NCBI RefSeq assembly: GCF_020886695.1 | Contig: NZ_AP024485.1 | Coordinates: forward strand, 3,539,001 to 3,603,000 | Origin: Pseudodesulfovibrio sediminis | GTDB taxonomy: Bacteria; Desulfobacterota; Desulfovibrionia; Desulfovibrionales; Desulfovibrionaceae | Reading direction: 5' to 3' | Length of the DNA: 64,000 nucleotides | Shown: positions 55,764 to 62,621 of the stretch, one piece after another | Layout of the letters: the number at the start of each line of letters is the position of its first letter | Numbering within the stretch: position 1 is the stretch's first letter | Notes under the pieces: generated by a model | What the model was told of the DNA's origin: nothing | The model's input: the letters and a program-made list of their open reading frames with translations, nothing else | Databases searched by the model: none | Position numbers and translations under genes: made by a program

Positions 55764-57533
55764 TTAGGCCGCTGCCTTTTTTTTGAGATTGACGCAGACC
55801 TTGCGGTCCACTTCACGAATTTTTTTCAGAATCTGCTTGGCGATGCGCTTGAATTCGCTGAGATCCTTGGGCTCGTACTCGAACTTCGCCTTGGTCAGCC
55901 CTGCCAGATCAATGGATTCGTTGAACAGGTAGGGCATGTAGAGCGGGTCCTGCTTGATGAAGAGGGCCAGCTTGTCCATGGCTTCGTGGATTTTCTGCTG
56001 GTTTCCTTTCACGTCTTTGAAGAGCTTGCCCAGATATTTTTCGGCATTGCGCATGGACGTGGTCCACATGGGCGAGCGTGGTTCCAGAAGGATGGGGGCG
56101 ACATTGCCGCGACAGGCCAACAGGTCGGTCATGAATCTGTCCACGCTGCCGGGAGCCGACGCCAGGATACCCTGGTTGTATGCGGTCTTGATATCCACGG
56201 GCTTGGTGCCTTCAATGGGGACACCGCCGCCGTAGAGGTTGTATACCGGGAAGGCCGCGTCCTTGAGATCCTGTTCCAGTTCGCGTTTGGCGGTCATGTA
56301 TTGGACCGTGGTCAGAATTTCCTCACCGTCCATGTTCCTGGTGGTCTGGTGGAAGGAGCGGCGCTTCATGCTGGTGGAGTGGTGATGGTGGCCGCCCGCA
56401 TGGGACTGGCCGTTCAGCCATGCGTAATCCTGACCGGCCAGCAGCAGATGATTTACACCGCAGCGGCGCAGGAAGCGCGACAGGGTGACGGAGACGTTAC
56501 CGCCCGCATCAATGACCATATCCCGTTCCTTGAACACGAAGGTACCGATACCGCCGATGGTCCATAGTGGCAGAGTGGGGCCGGGGTATCGCTTGAGCAC
56601 CATGGGGTCTATTTTGGTGGAATAGATGAGCGGGACATCCTTGATGAAATCGGGGTCGAGCTGATCAAAAATCTTGAGCATGGACCCGTCATAGTCGATA
56701 GCCGCGCACAGGTGCGGCTTGAGACCGACTTTCTGGAGCGAGGGCACTGTCTGGAGGGCGCATGTATAAAGGACATGCCCCTGATTTTCCTTGAGCTTGG
56801 GGGCCATCTCTTCAAGGCTTGGCCCGGCGCCGAGGATAACCGCGCCCACGCCGCGGCCTTTGCCCTCCATGGGCAACAGACTGCCGTCACTCATGGCGTG
56901 TTTGAAATTGTTGATCTCGTTGGAGACCATGACATCCTGACGGAAGCGCAGGGTGGACAGCTCCAGAGAGAAGTTTTCAAGCTTGTTCCTGATGTGCGTG
57001 GCCCACTGTGCATACTCCGGTCCCAACTGGCGGCTGGGGATATCGCTCTTCAGGTGGATCTGTCCGTAGATGAACTGGAGGTCGAGGTTGCGGATGACCT
57101 CGGCAACAAACCGTTCGTCCGGGACCAGAATGTGAAATTTCTTGGCTTCGAACCAGGGGCGGTAGTCGGTCTGTCCCAGACAGGCGAGGACCATCTCGGG
57201 CCGGGGTTCCATGAGCATGACCTTGTGCGTGTCCGGGGTGTTGGACAGCAGGTGATTGACGCCGTAGCCGAGGTTTGCGCCGACAATGAAGGTGGCCGAG
57301 GTCTTGGCTTTTTCTTCGTGCAGCCAGTTGGCATACAGCCCCTCGGGCGGCAGGGATTCAAGCATGCCCTTGCCGGTCTCCATGCGCCAGTCAAGGATGC
57401 CGAAGTTGTTGACGAAGAGGTTCTCCATCAGTTTTTCTTCTTGGAAATCACGTTCGGAGAGCCACTGAAAAATTGGGTTTCCAGTGCGTTGCAGGTACTC
57501 GATGTTGTCTTTCAAAAACGGGTATGGGGTCAT
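55764..57533 (-). CDS. DUF115 (MptE/Maf-like) protein
   Basis: The 589-residue protein has the DUF115 / 6-hydroxymethylpterin diphosphokinase MptE-like domain in the middle (about 205-400): GAVILGAGPSLEEMAPKLKEN, CALQTVPSLQKVGLKPHLCAAIDYD and LLAGQDYAWLNGQSHAGG. This family includes Maf proteins that transfer pseudaminic or related sugars to flagellins. The N-terminal half is also Maf-like (FIVGANLGYGVNHLL; VMLMEPRPEMV). No flagellin or nonulosonate genes are nearby. The ATG at 57533 has GAGG upstream. Divergent from the fusion gene at 57672. Confidence 0.85.
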   Translation of the reverse strand: MTPYPFLKDNIEYLQRTGNPIFQWLSERDFQEEKLMENLFVNNFGILDWRMETGKGMLESLPPEGLYANWLHEEKAKTSATFIVGANLGYGVNHLLSNTPDTHKVMLMEPRPEMVLACLGQTDYRPWFEAKKFHILVPDERFVAEVIRNLDLQFIYGQIHLKSDIPSRQLGPEYAQWATHIRNKLENFSLELSTLRFRQDVMVSNEINNFKHAMSDGSLLPMEGKGRGVGAVILGAGPSLEEMAPKLKENQGHVLYTCALQTVPSLQKVGLKPHLCAAIDYDGSMLKIFDQLDPDFIKDVPLIYSTKIDPMVLKRYPGPTLPLWTIGGIGTFVFKERDMVIDAGGNVSVTLSRFLRRCGVNHLLLAGQDYAWLNGQSHAGGHHHHSTSMKRRSFHQTTRNMDGEEILTTVQYMTAKRELEQDLKDAAFPVYNLYGGGVPIEGTKPVDIKTAYNQGILASAPGSVDRFMTDLLACRGNVAPILLEPRSPMWTTSMRNAEKYLGKLFKDVKGNQQKIHEAMDKLALFIKQDPLYMPYLFNESIDLAGLTKAKFEYEPKDLSEFKRIAKQILKKIREVDRKVCVNLKKKAAA

Positions 57534-57671
57534 GGTGGTCCTCGTAGTGCTCAAAAAATGGACGGTCCTGCGAAAGAATTGCATGTTGTATGCCAGTTGC
57601 GCACAAATCTGTTTTGCCATACGGTGCGATCACAATCAAATAACTCTCATTCCTGCTATCATGGTGAAATA

Positions 57672-59951
57672 ATGAATAAAGATTTGCTCGCGCTTATCGG
57701 CAACACGCCGCTGGTGGAGATCAGGCACATGAATCCGAACCCGAACGTCACGATTCTGGCGAAGATCGAGTGCCAGAATCCCGGCGGTTCCATCAAGGAT
57801 CGTGTGGCCGCCGCCATGATTCAGGCTGCCGAAGACTCGGGCGAACTGACCAAAGACAAAATCATTATTGAGGCCACATCCGGCAATACCGGCGTGGGAC
57901 TGGCCATGGTCGCCGCCATCAAGGGCTACCGCATCAAGCTGCTCATGCCGGAGACGGCATCCGAAGAGCGCAAGATGATCATGGCCGCATACGGTGCCGA
58001 GCTGGAGCTGACCCCCGGCCATTTGTCCACGGACGGAGCCATCGAGCAGGCCTACCGCTATGCCCGCGAAGAGCCGGGCACATATGTCCTCATGGATCAG
58101 TTTAACAATCCTGCTTCCATCGACGCCCATTATAATGGAACCGGCCTCGAAATCTGGAATCAGACCAATGGCTCCGTGACCCACTGCGTCATGACGCTGG
58201 GCACCTCGGGCACGGCCATGGGCATTGCCAAGCGGCTGCATGAAATGGGCGATGTGCATGTGGCGGCCGTGGAGCCATACGCGGGTCACAAGATTCAGGG
58301 TCTCAAGAATATGCTTGAATCCTATCCTCCCGGTATTTATGACAAGAATAATCTCGATGAGATTCTGCATATCGATGACGACGCCGCTTTCGAGAATTGC
58401 CGCAGGCTGGCCCGTGAAGAGGGTATCTTTGCCGGGATGAGTTCCGGCGCGGCCATTGGTGGAGCACTGCAACTGGCCGAGCGGCTGGATTCCGGCCTGA
58501 TTGTTACCGTGTTCCCGGATTCGGGCGAGCGGTATCTGTCCACCCATTTGTACCGGCCGCAGCCAGGGTCGGGCATGACTATTTTTGACATGGCCTCCAA
58601 TCAGGACAAAATGCTCAGCACCGGGGCCGGATTCGGGCTCTACTGCATGGGGCCGAACCTGGATAATCTGGACGGTCTTGATTCATGGCGGCGCGTGGTG
58701 CTGCTCGATGTCCTGACCCGTCATCTGGCGTCACGCGGCACCGCTCTCGATGCTGCCGTGGGGCTGACCGACATGGACGACCGCACTTTGGCTGCAGCCC
58801 GCGAGGGCAATGTCAGCCGCGAGGCCTTTGCGGAAGAAATGCGTGACAACGTGCTGCAACGCGCCAGGGAGATGGGCATTGCGGACACGATTGCGTTTCC
58901 ACTTTCCTCGGCCAGCAACGAGGGCTCGCTGGAGCTGTGCCGTAAGCTTATGGGCAAAGGGCTGGCCTATGAAAAACTCCGGAGCGTCTATTTCGACGTG
59001 TTCCGCGACAAGCGATACGGCGAGATCGGTACCGTGGACATGGACAAGGTCTCCGGTGGCCGTACCGTGGACCTCAACGCCTATGTCAAAGACAACCCGC
59101 TTGATTTCACTCTGTTGAAACGGGCCACGCTCCTTGATCTGAAACGGGGCGAGGTGCTGGAAACCCAGTGGGGCAACGTGCGCCCGAGCTGGTTTCTGCA
59201 ACATGCGGCCACGGCGCTCGATGCCCTGCCGCGCATTGATGTGATGATCGGTTCGGACAAGCACCGCTTCCCGCATTTGGAAAATCTCCGCGCCATCTGG
59301 AGCACGGCCGGCCGCGAACTTCAGGTCTGGATGGTGGCCCAACAGGCCACGGACACGGAAGAGGGCAACCTGACCACCGTGGCCGAAAGCCTCGGCGGCT
59401 ACCGCGCCGCGCGTCTCTGGCTCCTGTCCGTTGCCAGCCGCAAACCGTTGTGCGCCTCTGCCGAAACCCTGTCCATGTGGGCCAGAAACTGGCGCAAGGT
59501 ACAGGAAGGCGCGGCCACTCTGACTCTCGCTCTGGACGCCAAGGGCGATATCATTTCTCCTGACGTGGAGCAGGCTGTCTTCGACCTCAAGGCAGGCTTC
59601 AAAACCGCCATGGACGACGGCCTCAAATTCCACCATTTCTGGCCGGTCCTCTTCAGATTTACCAAACAAGTCAACGGCTGGGCCGCAGACGGCTCCCTCA
59701 CCGGAGCCGCCGCCAAATCCTGCCATGAAGAACTGACGGCCATAGACACGGTCCTCGGTATCCTCGACCCAACCCAGATGCCCATCCCCCTGAGCGACCT
59801 CCCAGACGAAGTCCAAGGCATGGTCGCCGACCGCCAAAAGGCTCGGGAAGCAAAAGACTTCGCCATGTCGGACGAGCTGCGGGACCAAATAGCCGAAGCC
59901 GGATTCAGAGTAGAAGACACCGGTGGAGTACCAAGAGTATTTAATGCGTAG
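57672..59951 (+). CDS. Cysteine synthase fused to a degenerate cysteinyl-tRNA-synthetase-like domain
   Basis: The 759-residue protein has two parts. Residues 1 to about 305 are a complete O-acetylserine sulfhydrylase: NPGGSIKDR with PLP Lys42, TSGNTG, the GTSGT phosphate loop and PDSGERYLST. Residues about 318-759 align with CysRS: YCMGPN, LTDMDD, PLDFTLLKR, the FPHLEN segment, DALR-type helices and a terminal RQKAREAKDFAMSDELRDQI-type helix. HIGH reads GLDS (335-338), KMSKS reads TVAES (569-573), and zinc ligands C209 and E238 of the E. coli enzyme correspond to H511 and L539. Aminoacylation is therefore unlikely; a regulatory, tRNA- or cysteine-binding role is inference. Confidence 0.88.
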   Translation: MNKDLLALIGNTPLVEIRHMNPNPNVTILAKIECQNPGGSIKDRVAAAMIQAAEDSGELTKDKIIIEATSGNTGVGLAMVAAIKGYRIKLLMPETASEERKMIMAAYGAELELTPGHLSTDGAIEQAYRYAREEPGTYVLMDQFNNPASIDAHYNGTGLEIWNQTNGSVTHCVMTLGTSGTAMGIAKRLHEMGDVHVAAVEPYAGHKIQGLKNMLESYPPGIYDKNNLDEILHIDDDAAFENCRRLAREEGIFAGMSSGAAIGGALQLAERLDSGLIVTVFPDSGERYLSTHLYRPQPGSGMTIFDMASNQDKMLSTGAGFGLYCMGPNLDNLDGLDSWRRVVLLDVLTRHLASRGTALDAAVGLTDMDDRTLAAAREGNVSREAFAEEMRDNVLQRAREMGIADTIAFPLSSASNEGSLELCRKLMGKGLAYEKLRSVYFDVFRDKRYGEIGTVDMDKVSGGRTVDLNAYVKDNPLDFTLLKRATLLDLKRGEVLETQWGNVRPSWFLQHAATALDALPRIDVMIGSDKHRFPHLENLRAIWSTAGRELQVWMVAQQATDTEEGNLTTVAESLGGYRAARLWLLSVASRKPLCASAETLSMWARNWRKVQEGAATLTLALDAKGDIISPDVEQAVFDLKAGFKTAMDDGLKFHHFWPVLFRFTKQVNGWAADGSLTGAAAKSCHEELTAIDTVLGILDPTQMPIPLSDLPDEVQGMVADRQKAREAKDFAMSDELRDQIAEAGFRVEDTGGVPRVFNA

Positions 59952-59973
59952 ATTGAATTGAGATATTGAAAGC

Positions 59974-60003
59974 AAAAGGCCGCCCGTGAGGGCGGCCTTT
60001 CTG
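59974..60003 (+). terminator. Terminator after the fusion gene
   Basis: AAAGGCCGCCC and GGGCGGCCTTT arms around GTGA, 25 bases after the stop. Confidence 0.88.
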
Positions 60004-60020
60004 TTTAGTAGAGGAGGATT

Positions 60021-61082
60021 TTATTCATAGAAGCTTGGAATAACTCGAAGCCGATCAGCATAATTATAAATATCGTTGAGACTTTGAAGAGGGACTCTTT
60101 CTTCATTTTTATTTTTGTCGGTAATAATCCCAAGGTAGTATTGAGATGTATTGAAATGAAGACGACATAAGGGTTTCCGGTTGTTGTCGTCCAAAAGGAT
60201 ACCACAGTAGCTAAGTGTATCCCTCATAATAACTCGTTCAGGGTCGACAATTTTTCTCATTATTGCTTTTATAATAAAATAACCATCACGTTCGTCATCC
60301 GTCGTTTTAATTTTGGGTTTATTGTCTGCGCTAATATCTACTGTTTTTTCTATCTCATCAGTTGGTTCTTCAATCATTGCATTTTTTAAACGGTCGTTAA
60401 TTGCATCATTGATATAGAGCTTCATCGCTTTTCTGACGAGTTCTGCAAACTTCTCTTTAACTGCTGGCATAAGTTTCCCAGAGTATACTTGGGAAGCAAA
60501 ATGTCGAATAAATTCATCTGATGGAATTTGGCTTTCTTTGACAAGAATCTTTTTGATTGCACGTGTATATTTGAGTTCACTAGCAGCAGAGAGTGTTTGT
60601 TCTATGTTGAAATGAGGTTTACTTATTTTTTTAAGTTCAGGGACTAGGCTTTCTTCAAGTGATTTAAAATTAAAAACCATGAATGGTTTTTCATCCATGA
60701 GATTTGCCCGGTCTAAATCAGTGAAGAACTGATATTGAATACCATCTGTAAGTATTCCGATTCTGGCAGATGGTGTCACTTGAAAATATCTTTGTAATTG
60801 GGCGGCATTGCATTGAGTTAAGTTTGAATTACACGTTTTACACTCTATCAACATAATAGGATTGCCGTCTTTCATTACGGCGAAATCTACCTTTTCGCCC
60901 TTTTTAGCTCCTATATCTGCGGTATATTCAGGGAAAACTTCTTGAGGGTTGAAAGGATCATATCCCAAAGTCTGCAAGAAAGGGAGCACAAGCGCATTTT
61001 TTGTCATTTCTTCGTTTTTCAAAATGCCAGAATTTTGTTGAACACGGTCTGCTAGTGCTTGAATTTTTTCAGTGAAGTCCAC
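60021..61082 (-). CDS. Orphan type I restriction (HsdR N-terminal)-like protein
   Basis: The 353-residue protein starts like HSDR_N domains: FLQTLGYDPFNPQEVFPEY, then KVDFAV and MLIECKT. Together these supply the E...D...ExK pattern of PD-(D/E)xK nucleases at about residues 45-80. GTPase/helicase motors and methylase or specificity subunits are absent, and the C-terminal ~180 residues are of unknown type with a DUF-like end. The start is GTG at 61082 with AAAGGAG. The gene is clearly AT-rich with many AAA/ATA/TTA codons, unlike its neighbours, which points to horizontal transfer. A defence role is possible. Confidence 0.75.
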   Translation of the reverse strand: MDFTEKIQALADRVQQNSGILKNEEMTKNALVLPFLQTLGYDPFNPQEVFPEYTADIGAKKGEKVDFAVMKDGNPIMLIECKTCNSNLTQCNAAQLQRYFQVTPSARIGILTDGIQYQFFTDLDRANLMDEKPFMVFNFKSLEESLVPELKKISKPHFNIEQTLSAASELKYTRAIKKILVKESQIPSDEFIRHFASQVYSGKLMPAVKEKFAELVRKAMKLYINDAINDRLKNAMIEEPTDEIEKTVDISADNKPKIKTTDDERDGYFIIKAIMRKIVDPERVIMRDTLSYCGILLDDNNRKPLCRLHFNTSQYYLGIITDKNKNEERVPLQSLNDIYNYADRLRVIPSFYE

Positions 61083-61157
61083 GGTACATCTCCTTTGTTA
61101 ATCAATTAGATATATTAAATATTCTATCGATGCAATCCCATCGTGTTTGTTTTAGGT

Positions 61158-61191
61158 TAAAAAAAGGGAGCCGCCCTTGCGGACAGCTCCC
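61158..61191 (-). terminator. Terminator after msrAB
   Basis: GGGAGC and GCTCCC arms with further inner pairing lie 28 bases past the msrAB stop and are followed on the minus strand by seven T. Confidence 0.8.
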
Positions 61192-61218
61192 GATCACAGT
61201 CGGCTACTTATCAAGCGC

Positions 61219-62349
61219 CTATTCAAATATCTTCAGATATTCGCCGTAGCCTTCCTTTTCCAGGTCCTCCTTGGGGATGAACCGCAGGGAGGCGGAGTTG
61301 ATGCAATACCGCAAACCAGTGGGTTGGGGACCATCGTTAAACACATGGCCAAGGTGCGAGTCTGCGTTCTTGCTGCGGACCTCTGTGCGGGTGCTGAACA
61401 GACTGCTGTCTTCCTTTTCCACGATATTCCCCGGCGTCAGTGGCCGTACGAAACTCGGCCAGCCTGTGCCGGACTTGAACTTGTCCTTGGAGGAAAAAAG
61501 CGGCTCGCCAGACACGATATCCACATAGATTCCTTCACGCTTGTTGTCCCAGAACTCGTTGTTGAACGGCGGCTCGGTGCCTTCCTCCTGGGTTACATCA
61601 TACTGCATGGGCGTGAGCAGCGCCTTGAGTTCCTCGTCCGTAGGCTTCACGAAATGACCGCCGGGGGTCAGGTCTGCCGAACCCTTGGAGAGAATCTTGA
61701 AGGCACCGATTTCAGCGTCGTCACCCCAGGTCTTGTCCACATACTTGTCGCGGCCCGAGAAGTAGCGGTAGGTCTTGTAGCGCACGGGATTGTGCTTGTA
61801 GTAATCCTGATGATACGTCTCTGCCGGATAAAACGTCGTGAACTTGATGATCGGCGTGACCACCGGGTTTTCAAGGCGACCGGATGCATCCAACGCCTGC
61901 TTGGAGGCTTCGGCGATCTCTAACTGAGCTTCATTATGGTAGAAGATGGCCGAGGTATACTGGAACCCGCGATCGCCAAAGGAACCACCGGCGTCCGTTG
62001 GGTCGAAATGCTTCCAATAATGATCCAGCACCTGTGCATAGGTGACCTTGGTCGGATCAAAGTGGACCTGAACAGCCTCGCGATAGCCCGTACTACCGCT
62101 GGATACCTGCTCGTAGGTCGGGTCCGGTTCTTCACCACCGGCATAGCCGGACACAACTTCGATCACGCCGGGGAGCTTCTCCAGATCAGACTCCACGCAC
62201 CAGAAACAGCCGCCAGCCAATGTGGCGATTTCAACGTTACTGTTTTCAGCCATGGCCTTTCCTCCGAGCATGTTGGTCGTTGAAATGAACAGTCCGCCTA
62301 TGAGAAGCAGTACTCCAATTGTAAGTGACAAGGTGAACGAGCGGGTCAT
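61219..62349 (-). CDS. msrAB: Exported fused methionine sulfoxide reductase MsrAB
   Basis: The 376-residue protein has an N-terminal signal or anchor (hydrophobic about 6-26, then polar by 35), an MsrA domain (about 40-205) with catalytic Cys in GGCFWCVE, and an MsrB domain (about 235-370) with [21 protein letters not shown] and catalytic Cys in [12 protein letters not shown]. MsrA and MsrB repair the S and R forms of Met-sulfoxide. The two CxxC zinc pairs of many MsrB are absent. Start at ATG 62349 because GGAGG lies seven bases upstream; a GTG three codons earlier is less likely. Periplasmic location is inferred. Confidence 0.93.
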
Positions 62350-62621
62350 AGTGACCACCTCCGTTAATGAAAATGATTTTCTTTTTCATCATAGAATAAA
62401 ATAGGTACCAAACGCATTGGTGTCAATGGGCGTAATCAGAATGTGTAAAAAGCAGTTTTTGGAAGCAGTTGGGTAGACACAGCCCGATATTTTTGCAAAA
62501 AAAGAGTGGATTTTTGAAAATTTTTAATGCAGATGGCAGCTTCGGTCCTGCAGACGGGATAAAAATCTGCTATCTAATCCTGACCGAGTATACATTTCGT
62601 ACACACTAAGAAGGAGTTATC

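Follow-up and report, generated by a model that had tools for sequence, protein, structure and literature searches.

A single frame of 759 amino acids at positions 57672-59951 (+) of the window, i.e., of the whole 64,000-nucleotide stretch of Pseudodesulfovibrio sediminis DNA analysed here, joins a cysteine synthase to a CysRS-like half, confirming what the initial annotation had read, namely one frame in which the synthetase domain lacks HIGH and KMSKS. We rate as about even the chance that the CysRS-like half remains a tRNA-Cys binder and that the bound tRNA serves to regulate or to position the synthase beside it. An appendage that binds tRNA-Cys and regulates or places cysteine synthesis is the best reading of the data because ATP and cysteine binding appear to have been discarded and the anticodon-reading residues kept, and because the domain travels with an intact synthase, beside a normal CysRS.

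Architecture of the fusion and its genomic setting

The CysM-type cysteine synthase half (residues 1-295; 57672..58556, +) is apparently intact, as judged from its sequence. The synthase part of the fusion scores 348 bits with TIGR01136, passing the family cut-off of 344 bits, and scores under the narrower cysM and cysK cut-offs. It shares 44% identity, the fold and the catalytic residues with the CysM/OASS-B structures (2bhs, 2jc3), from which the fusion differs in carrying the CysRS-like half, and the PLP lysine and the substrate and phosphate loops are intact in 106/106 fusions. The CysRS-like half without catalytic motifs (residues 301-759; 58572..59948, +) reaches 134 bits with TIGR00435, short of the cut-off of 340 bits; the CysRS fold spans its full length, and the anticodon-binding domain CysS_C (PF23493) occupies residues 708-752 (59793..59927, +). 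An artefactual fusion was rejected, as the same architecture is found across many genomes. An antisense frame of 414 aa (window 58731-59975, -) lies over the fusion, and similar antisense frames recur in relatives; they look like an effect of codon composition. Public names are divided, most NCBI-named Desulfovibrionaceae entries being called 'cysteine synthase' and other entries of the family, e.g., that of Desulfofustis limnaeus, 'cysteine--tRNA ligase'; such mixed names can mislead pathway and essentiality predictions.

Motif positions were mapped with E. coli K-12 CysRS as the ruler. GLDS stands at the position of the HIGH motif (58674..58685, +), and the KMSKS stretch is deleted in the window's fusion. 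Four residues, C28, C209, H234 and E238, we take to be the CysRS zinc ligands. M326 (58647..58649, +) and H511 (59202..59204, +) stand at the positions of C28 and C209, and in the stretch from H535 to L539 (59274..59288, +) H234 is kept and E238 is lost. Three ligands (C28, C209 and E238, replaced by M, H and L) are therefore gone, where the initial annotation had counted two. The same mapping, which that annotation had proposed as a check, was extended to a non-redundant set of 58 fusions from the window's order, from which L108 (with its C-terminus missing) and near-identical loci had been dropped beforehand. Against 32 canonical CysRS, complete HIGH, complete KMSKS, C28, C209 and E238 were each lost in 58/58 of these fusions, and H234 is the sole zinc ligand retained (57/58). 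The fusion is thus like canonical CysRS (TIGR00435; 1u0b, 1li5) in its whole-length fold, anticodon domain and G34-contact residues, and unlike it in lacking HIGH and KMSKS, in having one of four zinc ligands and in standing behind a cysteine synthase.

A separate canonical cysS, for which the initial annotation had suggested looking, was found in the same genome (L001, 549 bits, HIGH and KMSKS present), elsewhere on the chromosome and away from the fusion gene; with this intact gene there, the idea that the fusion substitutes for the synthetase in the window's genome was rejected. The genome also has a separate cysK, located between genes that we name, from their sequences, NifS-like and CysE-like. 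The fusion gene stands alone, its upstream neighbour (MptE-like) being divergent and its downstream neighbour (HSDR_N) convergent. The gene at window 60021-61082 (-) encodes a protein of 353 aa whose only Pfam match is HSDR_N, the N-terminal domain of the type I restriction R subunit, and that at 61219-62358 (-) encodes a protein in which methionine sulfoxide reductases A and B (PMSR and SelR) form one chain. Around the fusion, no Rfam match was found in window 56500-61500. In a search of 81 stretches for a conserved operon partner, most recurrent groups turned out to be frames antisense to the fusion, and clear synteny of the neighbours was limited to 7 loci of one family.

Distribution, joint inheritance and graded decay

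The suggestion that the protein could be lineage-wide, with a check across Desulfovibrionaceae, was too narrow, the CysRS-like half being matched in 157/395 genomes of the phylum and in 103/252 sampled genera (E<=1e-33). Within the window's order, 94/150 genomes gave a strong match (E<=1e-60), and a cysS match over the cut-off was seen in 141/150 genomes and in 89 of those 94. Matching frames are long enough for the fusion, except at contig ends and in one frame-shifted member; among the matches listed, those of the phylum mostly measure 760-930 aa. In a scan of species genomes, the best 80 of 544 relatives were, by their titles, nearly all from Deltaproteobacteria groups, Desulfobacca, Desulfobulbus, NaphS2, Syntrophaceae, Desulfofervidaceae and Desulfurivibrio being among them. 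One fusion-type match (L230) lies in a contig titled Methanococcoides sp. MAG, which is probably of bacterial origin and was misbinned with an archaeal genome. A scan of viral contigs with a single protein, which detects close relatives only, gave no match.

By sequence matching, the two halves were shown to be present or absent jointly in the genomes checked. The joint-loss test covered 33 of the 56 order genomes lacking a strong match to the CysRS-like half, some of them incomplete: 5 had no synthase match (E<=1e-40), 27 had only synthases with <=47% identity to that of the window, and the sole exception was G025, with a synthase-half orthologue of 69% identity at a contig end. In the phylum, the clearly shorter fusion-type synthase frames among the matches listed were those of G211 and G433 (contig ends) and G161 (frame-shifted), in a check confined to the stronger CysM matches, a further and weaker set being present in other families. 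A change of frame within the CysRS-like half breaks the fusion of G161 (L299 752-3459) into frames of 704 aa and 211 aa. Four short database entries, P0006, P0022, P0104 and P0168, have only the CysRS-like half and no synthase domain. Neither P0104 nor P0168 starts with Met, and P0168 is labelled partial. P0006 (453 aa) and P0022 (446 aa) do start with Met; each may come from a split gene, lie at a contig end or be a free-standing protein. As to the synthetase itself, a standalone cysS-type match over the cut-off was found in 40/40 phylum-level fusion genomes searched; that of G276 covers positions 1-384 only, those of G248 and G300 fall in a divergent group, and all three keep HxG[HN] and KM[SA]KS.

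A tree of 125 CysRS-type sequences was built with a quick method and SH-aLRT as the only support, 28 rows being flagged for unusual composition; its input after a similarity cut held 35/58 order fusions and 38/48 fusions from outside the order. All 73 fusions group in one clade (SH-aLRT 99), and so do the 35 of the order (SH-aLRT 100), whose stem is long, at 1.18 changes per column. Among these 73 representatives, C28 is lost in 45, C209 in 41, E238 in 47, the first His of HIGH in 53, its last residue (H or N) in 68 and KMSxS in 64. Going beyond the initial annotation, we found that much more of the active site of the synthetase survives in relatives outside the order, so that the fusions form a graded decay series. 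Four zinc ligands are kept in 28/48 of them, T68 in 36/48, W205 in 46/48 and KMSxS in 9/48, and the last HIGH residue is mostly changed (n=48). All synthetase motifs together occur in 0/106 aligned fusions; among the matches listed, 15/228 database fusions keep HxGN (HLGN or HMGN), KMSxS and four zinc ligands, and some fusions exceed the cysS cut-off (e.g., G381, with 460 bits). Since the synthetase half is less decayed outside the order, with some members having HLGN, KMSxS and four zinc ligands, the parent fusion was probably active-looking and resembled a working synthetase. The active site was probably worn away more than once, the window's order being the extreme case; a one-step loss in Desulfovibrionaceae was rejected, as relatives outside the order show graded decay.

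Anticodon-reading residues and possible roles of the CysRS-like half

In the mapping onto E. coli K-12 CysRS, R721, R725, F730 and D734 of the fusion (59832..59873, +) correspond to R423, R427, W432 and D436. According to the passages of PMC12684709 that bear on it, R427, D436 and W432 are the contacts of E. coli CysRS to anticodon base G34 (Hauenstein 2004), to which the same passages add R423. The CysRS-like half has an anticodon domain with these G34-contact residues present, and binding is predicted from them. Among the 73 representative fusions, R423, the aromatic residue at 432, D436, R439 and D451 are lost in none, and R427 is lost in 9, of which 8 have Lys; in the order, R427 is Lys or Gln in 8/58 fusions, and 58/58 have lost W458, a residue that canonical CysRS keep without exception. 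Single gaps at anticodon positions among the 48 fusions from outside the order, and in the count by region given below, are due to L164, a frame-shifted member. R423, R427, aromatic 432, D436 and D451 are all present in 228/228 database fusions among the matches listed, the 228 proteins being two lists of 120 minus 12 (P0001 and 11 proteins under 740 aa, among them the four entries with the CysRS-like half alone).

The 126 positions invariant in 62 canonical CysRS were also scored in the fusions by region, with region borders set by us. Under the strict cut, 5/36 are kept in the first catalytic part, 7/30 in the second, 12/27 in the connective-peptide region and 5/9 in the anticodon domain, with 1/16 around KMSKS and 1/8 in the helical part. 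The connective-peptide region (residues 430-512; 58959..59207, +) carries the signature AYEK..S.YFD...YG...G.TVDL..Y.KDNP.DFTL[LF]KR..L..LK.G...T.WGNVRP.W, which is common to fusions inside and outside the order and differs from canonical CysRS. Its dN/dS is about 0.02-0.08 (7 pairs with finite dS), as compared to about 0.11-0.17 for the CysRS-like half (close relatives, 7 pairs with finite dS) and about 0.04-0.17 for the synthase half (8 pairs); L044 was left out of the set, and the CysRS-like half of L051 gives an infinite dS. As dS is near saturation, these ratios are rough, and what the sequence comparison shows is purifying selection on the CysRS-like half rather than its exact strength. 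Such selection on a half without the charging residues bears out the earlier claim that it is selected for something other than charging tRNA.

In the mechanism that we propose, the dead CysRS-like half would still bind tRNA-Cys, and this binding would tune or position the attached cysteine synthase, so that cysteine production would follow the state of the tRNA-Cys pool; the connective-peptide signature could, as a guess, be the coupling element. The working mode would resemble that of the HisRS-like domain of GCN2, except that the direct target here would be a biosynthetic enzyme, as HisG is for HisZ. We put forward only tentatively, and with more doubt than conviction, the sharper proposal that the fused cysteine synthase is switched by the dead CysRS as it reads the anticodon GCA on (uncharged) tRNA-Cys, which would make the fusion a phylum-wide enzyme of primary metabolism under direct gating by tRNA. 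Among the candidate roles listed in the initial annotation, the very rare decay of the G34-contact residues favours the sensing or holding of tRNA-Cys, and the loss of both the ATP motifs and the zinc site speaks, in the window's lineage, against the sensing of cysteine or Cys-AMP; overall, the interpretation given in that annotation is partly supported. Against tRNA-Cys binding, it can be argued that conservation in the anticodon domain could reflect the needs of the fold, the connective peptide being nearly as well kept, and that a tRNA-Cys-binding protein would compete with the real CysRS; moreover, no conserved neighbour points to translation control, W458 is lost, and R427 is sometimes Lys or Gln.

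If the anticodon-domain residues were indeed kept for the fold alone, the CysRS fold might serve as a protein-binding or oligomer scaffold, a docking or assembly surface for the synthase (e.g., with CysE or with itself). We regard this as rather unlikely: what most sets the fusions apart is the connective-peptide signature and not the anticodon domain, as a scaffold would suggest, but the G34-contact set in 228/228 proteins among the matches listed is not readily explained in that way while much else diverges. The anatomy expected for regulation by tRNA would be the same if the domain rode on tRNA-Cys or on the translation machinery and passed new cysteine straight to the real CysRS, with no allostery, and methanogens have tRNA-dependent cysteine synthesis with a scaffold protein (SepRS/SepCysS/SepCysE, as described in the relevant part of PMC5424206). 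However, cysS lies elsewhere on the chromosome and a complex with CysRS would be hypothetical, which makes such tethering or channelling improbable.

A sensor of cysteine or Cys-AMP in the old synthetase active site would suit the fusions outside the order, with their four zinc ligands, T68 and W205 so often in place, but the loss of C28, C209, E238, HIGH and KMSKS throughout the window's order renders it very unlikely. Even less credence is given to a bifunctional enzyme still charging tRNA-Cys. This would be possible for the lineages of the 15 database fusions with HxGN, KMSxS and four zinc ligands, and some fusions, G381 among them, are over the cysS cut-off. Furthermore, when a standalone cysS was sought again in six order genomes, none was seen in G084, G104, G018 and G019, only a CysRS*-like match in G050, and a split cysS in G005. 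On the other hand, the genomes without any standalone cysS match are drafts of 50-490 contigs whose aligned fusions also lack the motifs, and the missing or split cysS in the six is likely due to assembly gaps or errors; charging is not plausible for the window's protein, which has neither HIGH nor KMSKS and a normal cysS in its genome. The split cysS of G005 (G005:C2:129284-130655; L300, L306) consists of two overlapping stretches with residues 252-274 unmatched, and G084 belongs to the same genus. Finally, a neutral relic on its way out could account for the apparent absence of the gene from several genera of Desulfovibrionaceae, but it is hardly credible with full length kept over many of the matching genera and with the dN/dS of the CysRS-like half.

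Relation to known synthetase paralogs and significance

In searches limited to open-access papers, none on this fusion was found, and the fusion is not described in the passages of PMC2922099, PMC5764234, PMC3431258 and PMC10133479 that were consulted. Synthetase paralogs reused in amino-acid biosynthesis are a known kind, to which the fusion adds a variant. HisZ is not known to have an anticodon domain; the fusion differs from it in having kept this domain and in that the amino-acid site is gone. HisZ is a HisRS paralog and a regulatory subunit of HisG that mediates histidine feedback, as stated in the relevant part of PMC9437257. In both, a synthetase paralog without its chemistry (predicted to be so in the fusion) is attached to an enzyme making the same amino acid; with regard to adenylate formation, compared as a HisZ-type trait, the fusion lacks the HIGH and KMSKS motifs. 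The covalent fusion to cysteine synthase is suggestive of HisZ-type regulation of an enzyme for the same amino acid, and among synthetase paralogs with a part in amino-acid biosynthesis HisZ comes closest as a precedent. GCN2 is a kinase controlling translation, whose HisRS-like domain is a degenerate synthetase kept as a tRNA sensor. The fusion likewise has a degenerate synthetase domain inside a larger protein, its tRNA sensing being predicted, but the partner domain is a kinase in GCN2 and a biosynthetic enzyme here.

Two other CysRS paralogs offer a comparison. CysRS* of Desulfobacterales charges a SelC-type tRNA and has no anticodon domain (PMC9437257). It resembles the fusion in being a CysRS paralog in genomes of this phylum and is otherwise its mirror image, as the fusion has the anticodon domain with its contact residues. 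Seven CysRS-like proteins (L282-L288; five in the window's order), with frames of 423-500 aa, HxGN, KMSKS and no anticodon domain, fit CysRS* by sequence; they were picked for matches stopping near position 404, so that the missing domain is not an independent result. MshC keeps the active-site motifs and is not known to have an anticodon domain; the MshC structure 3c8z_A aligns to the fusion only up to residue 699. MshC is an active ligase, according to the corresponding passage of PMC9437257. It has no cysteine synthase half, and the fusion has neither HIGH nor KMSKS (58/58 order members lack the active-site motifs), in agreement with the earlier view that this reuse is unlike that of MshC. 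On this comparison, CysRS* and MshC went the opposite way from the fusion. A further CysRS fusion was observed in L290 (3438-5663, +) and L291 (G167, G203), where a half with HxGN and KMAKS is followed by a family-2 glycosyltransferase in about 730-740 aa, the domain call coming from a Pfam run on L290 only.

The fusion adds a case in which a synthetase has come to serve the making of its own amino acid; here the two are covalently joined, and the choice is unusual, as the tRNA-reading end is kept and the chemistry discarded. Moreover, its many decay stages in one phylum provide a natural series for testing why a synthetase fold persists after charging ends. Its anatomy suggests that cysteine synthesis in these bacteria may be controlled through tRNA; if such gating is true, cysteine supply would follow translational demand without a transcription factor, riboswitch or feedback ligand.
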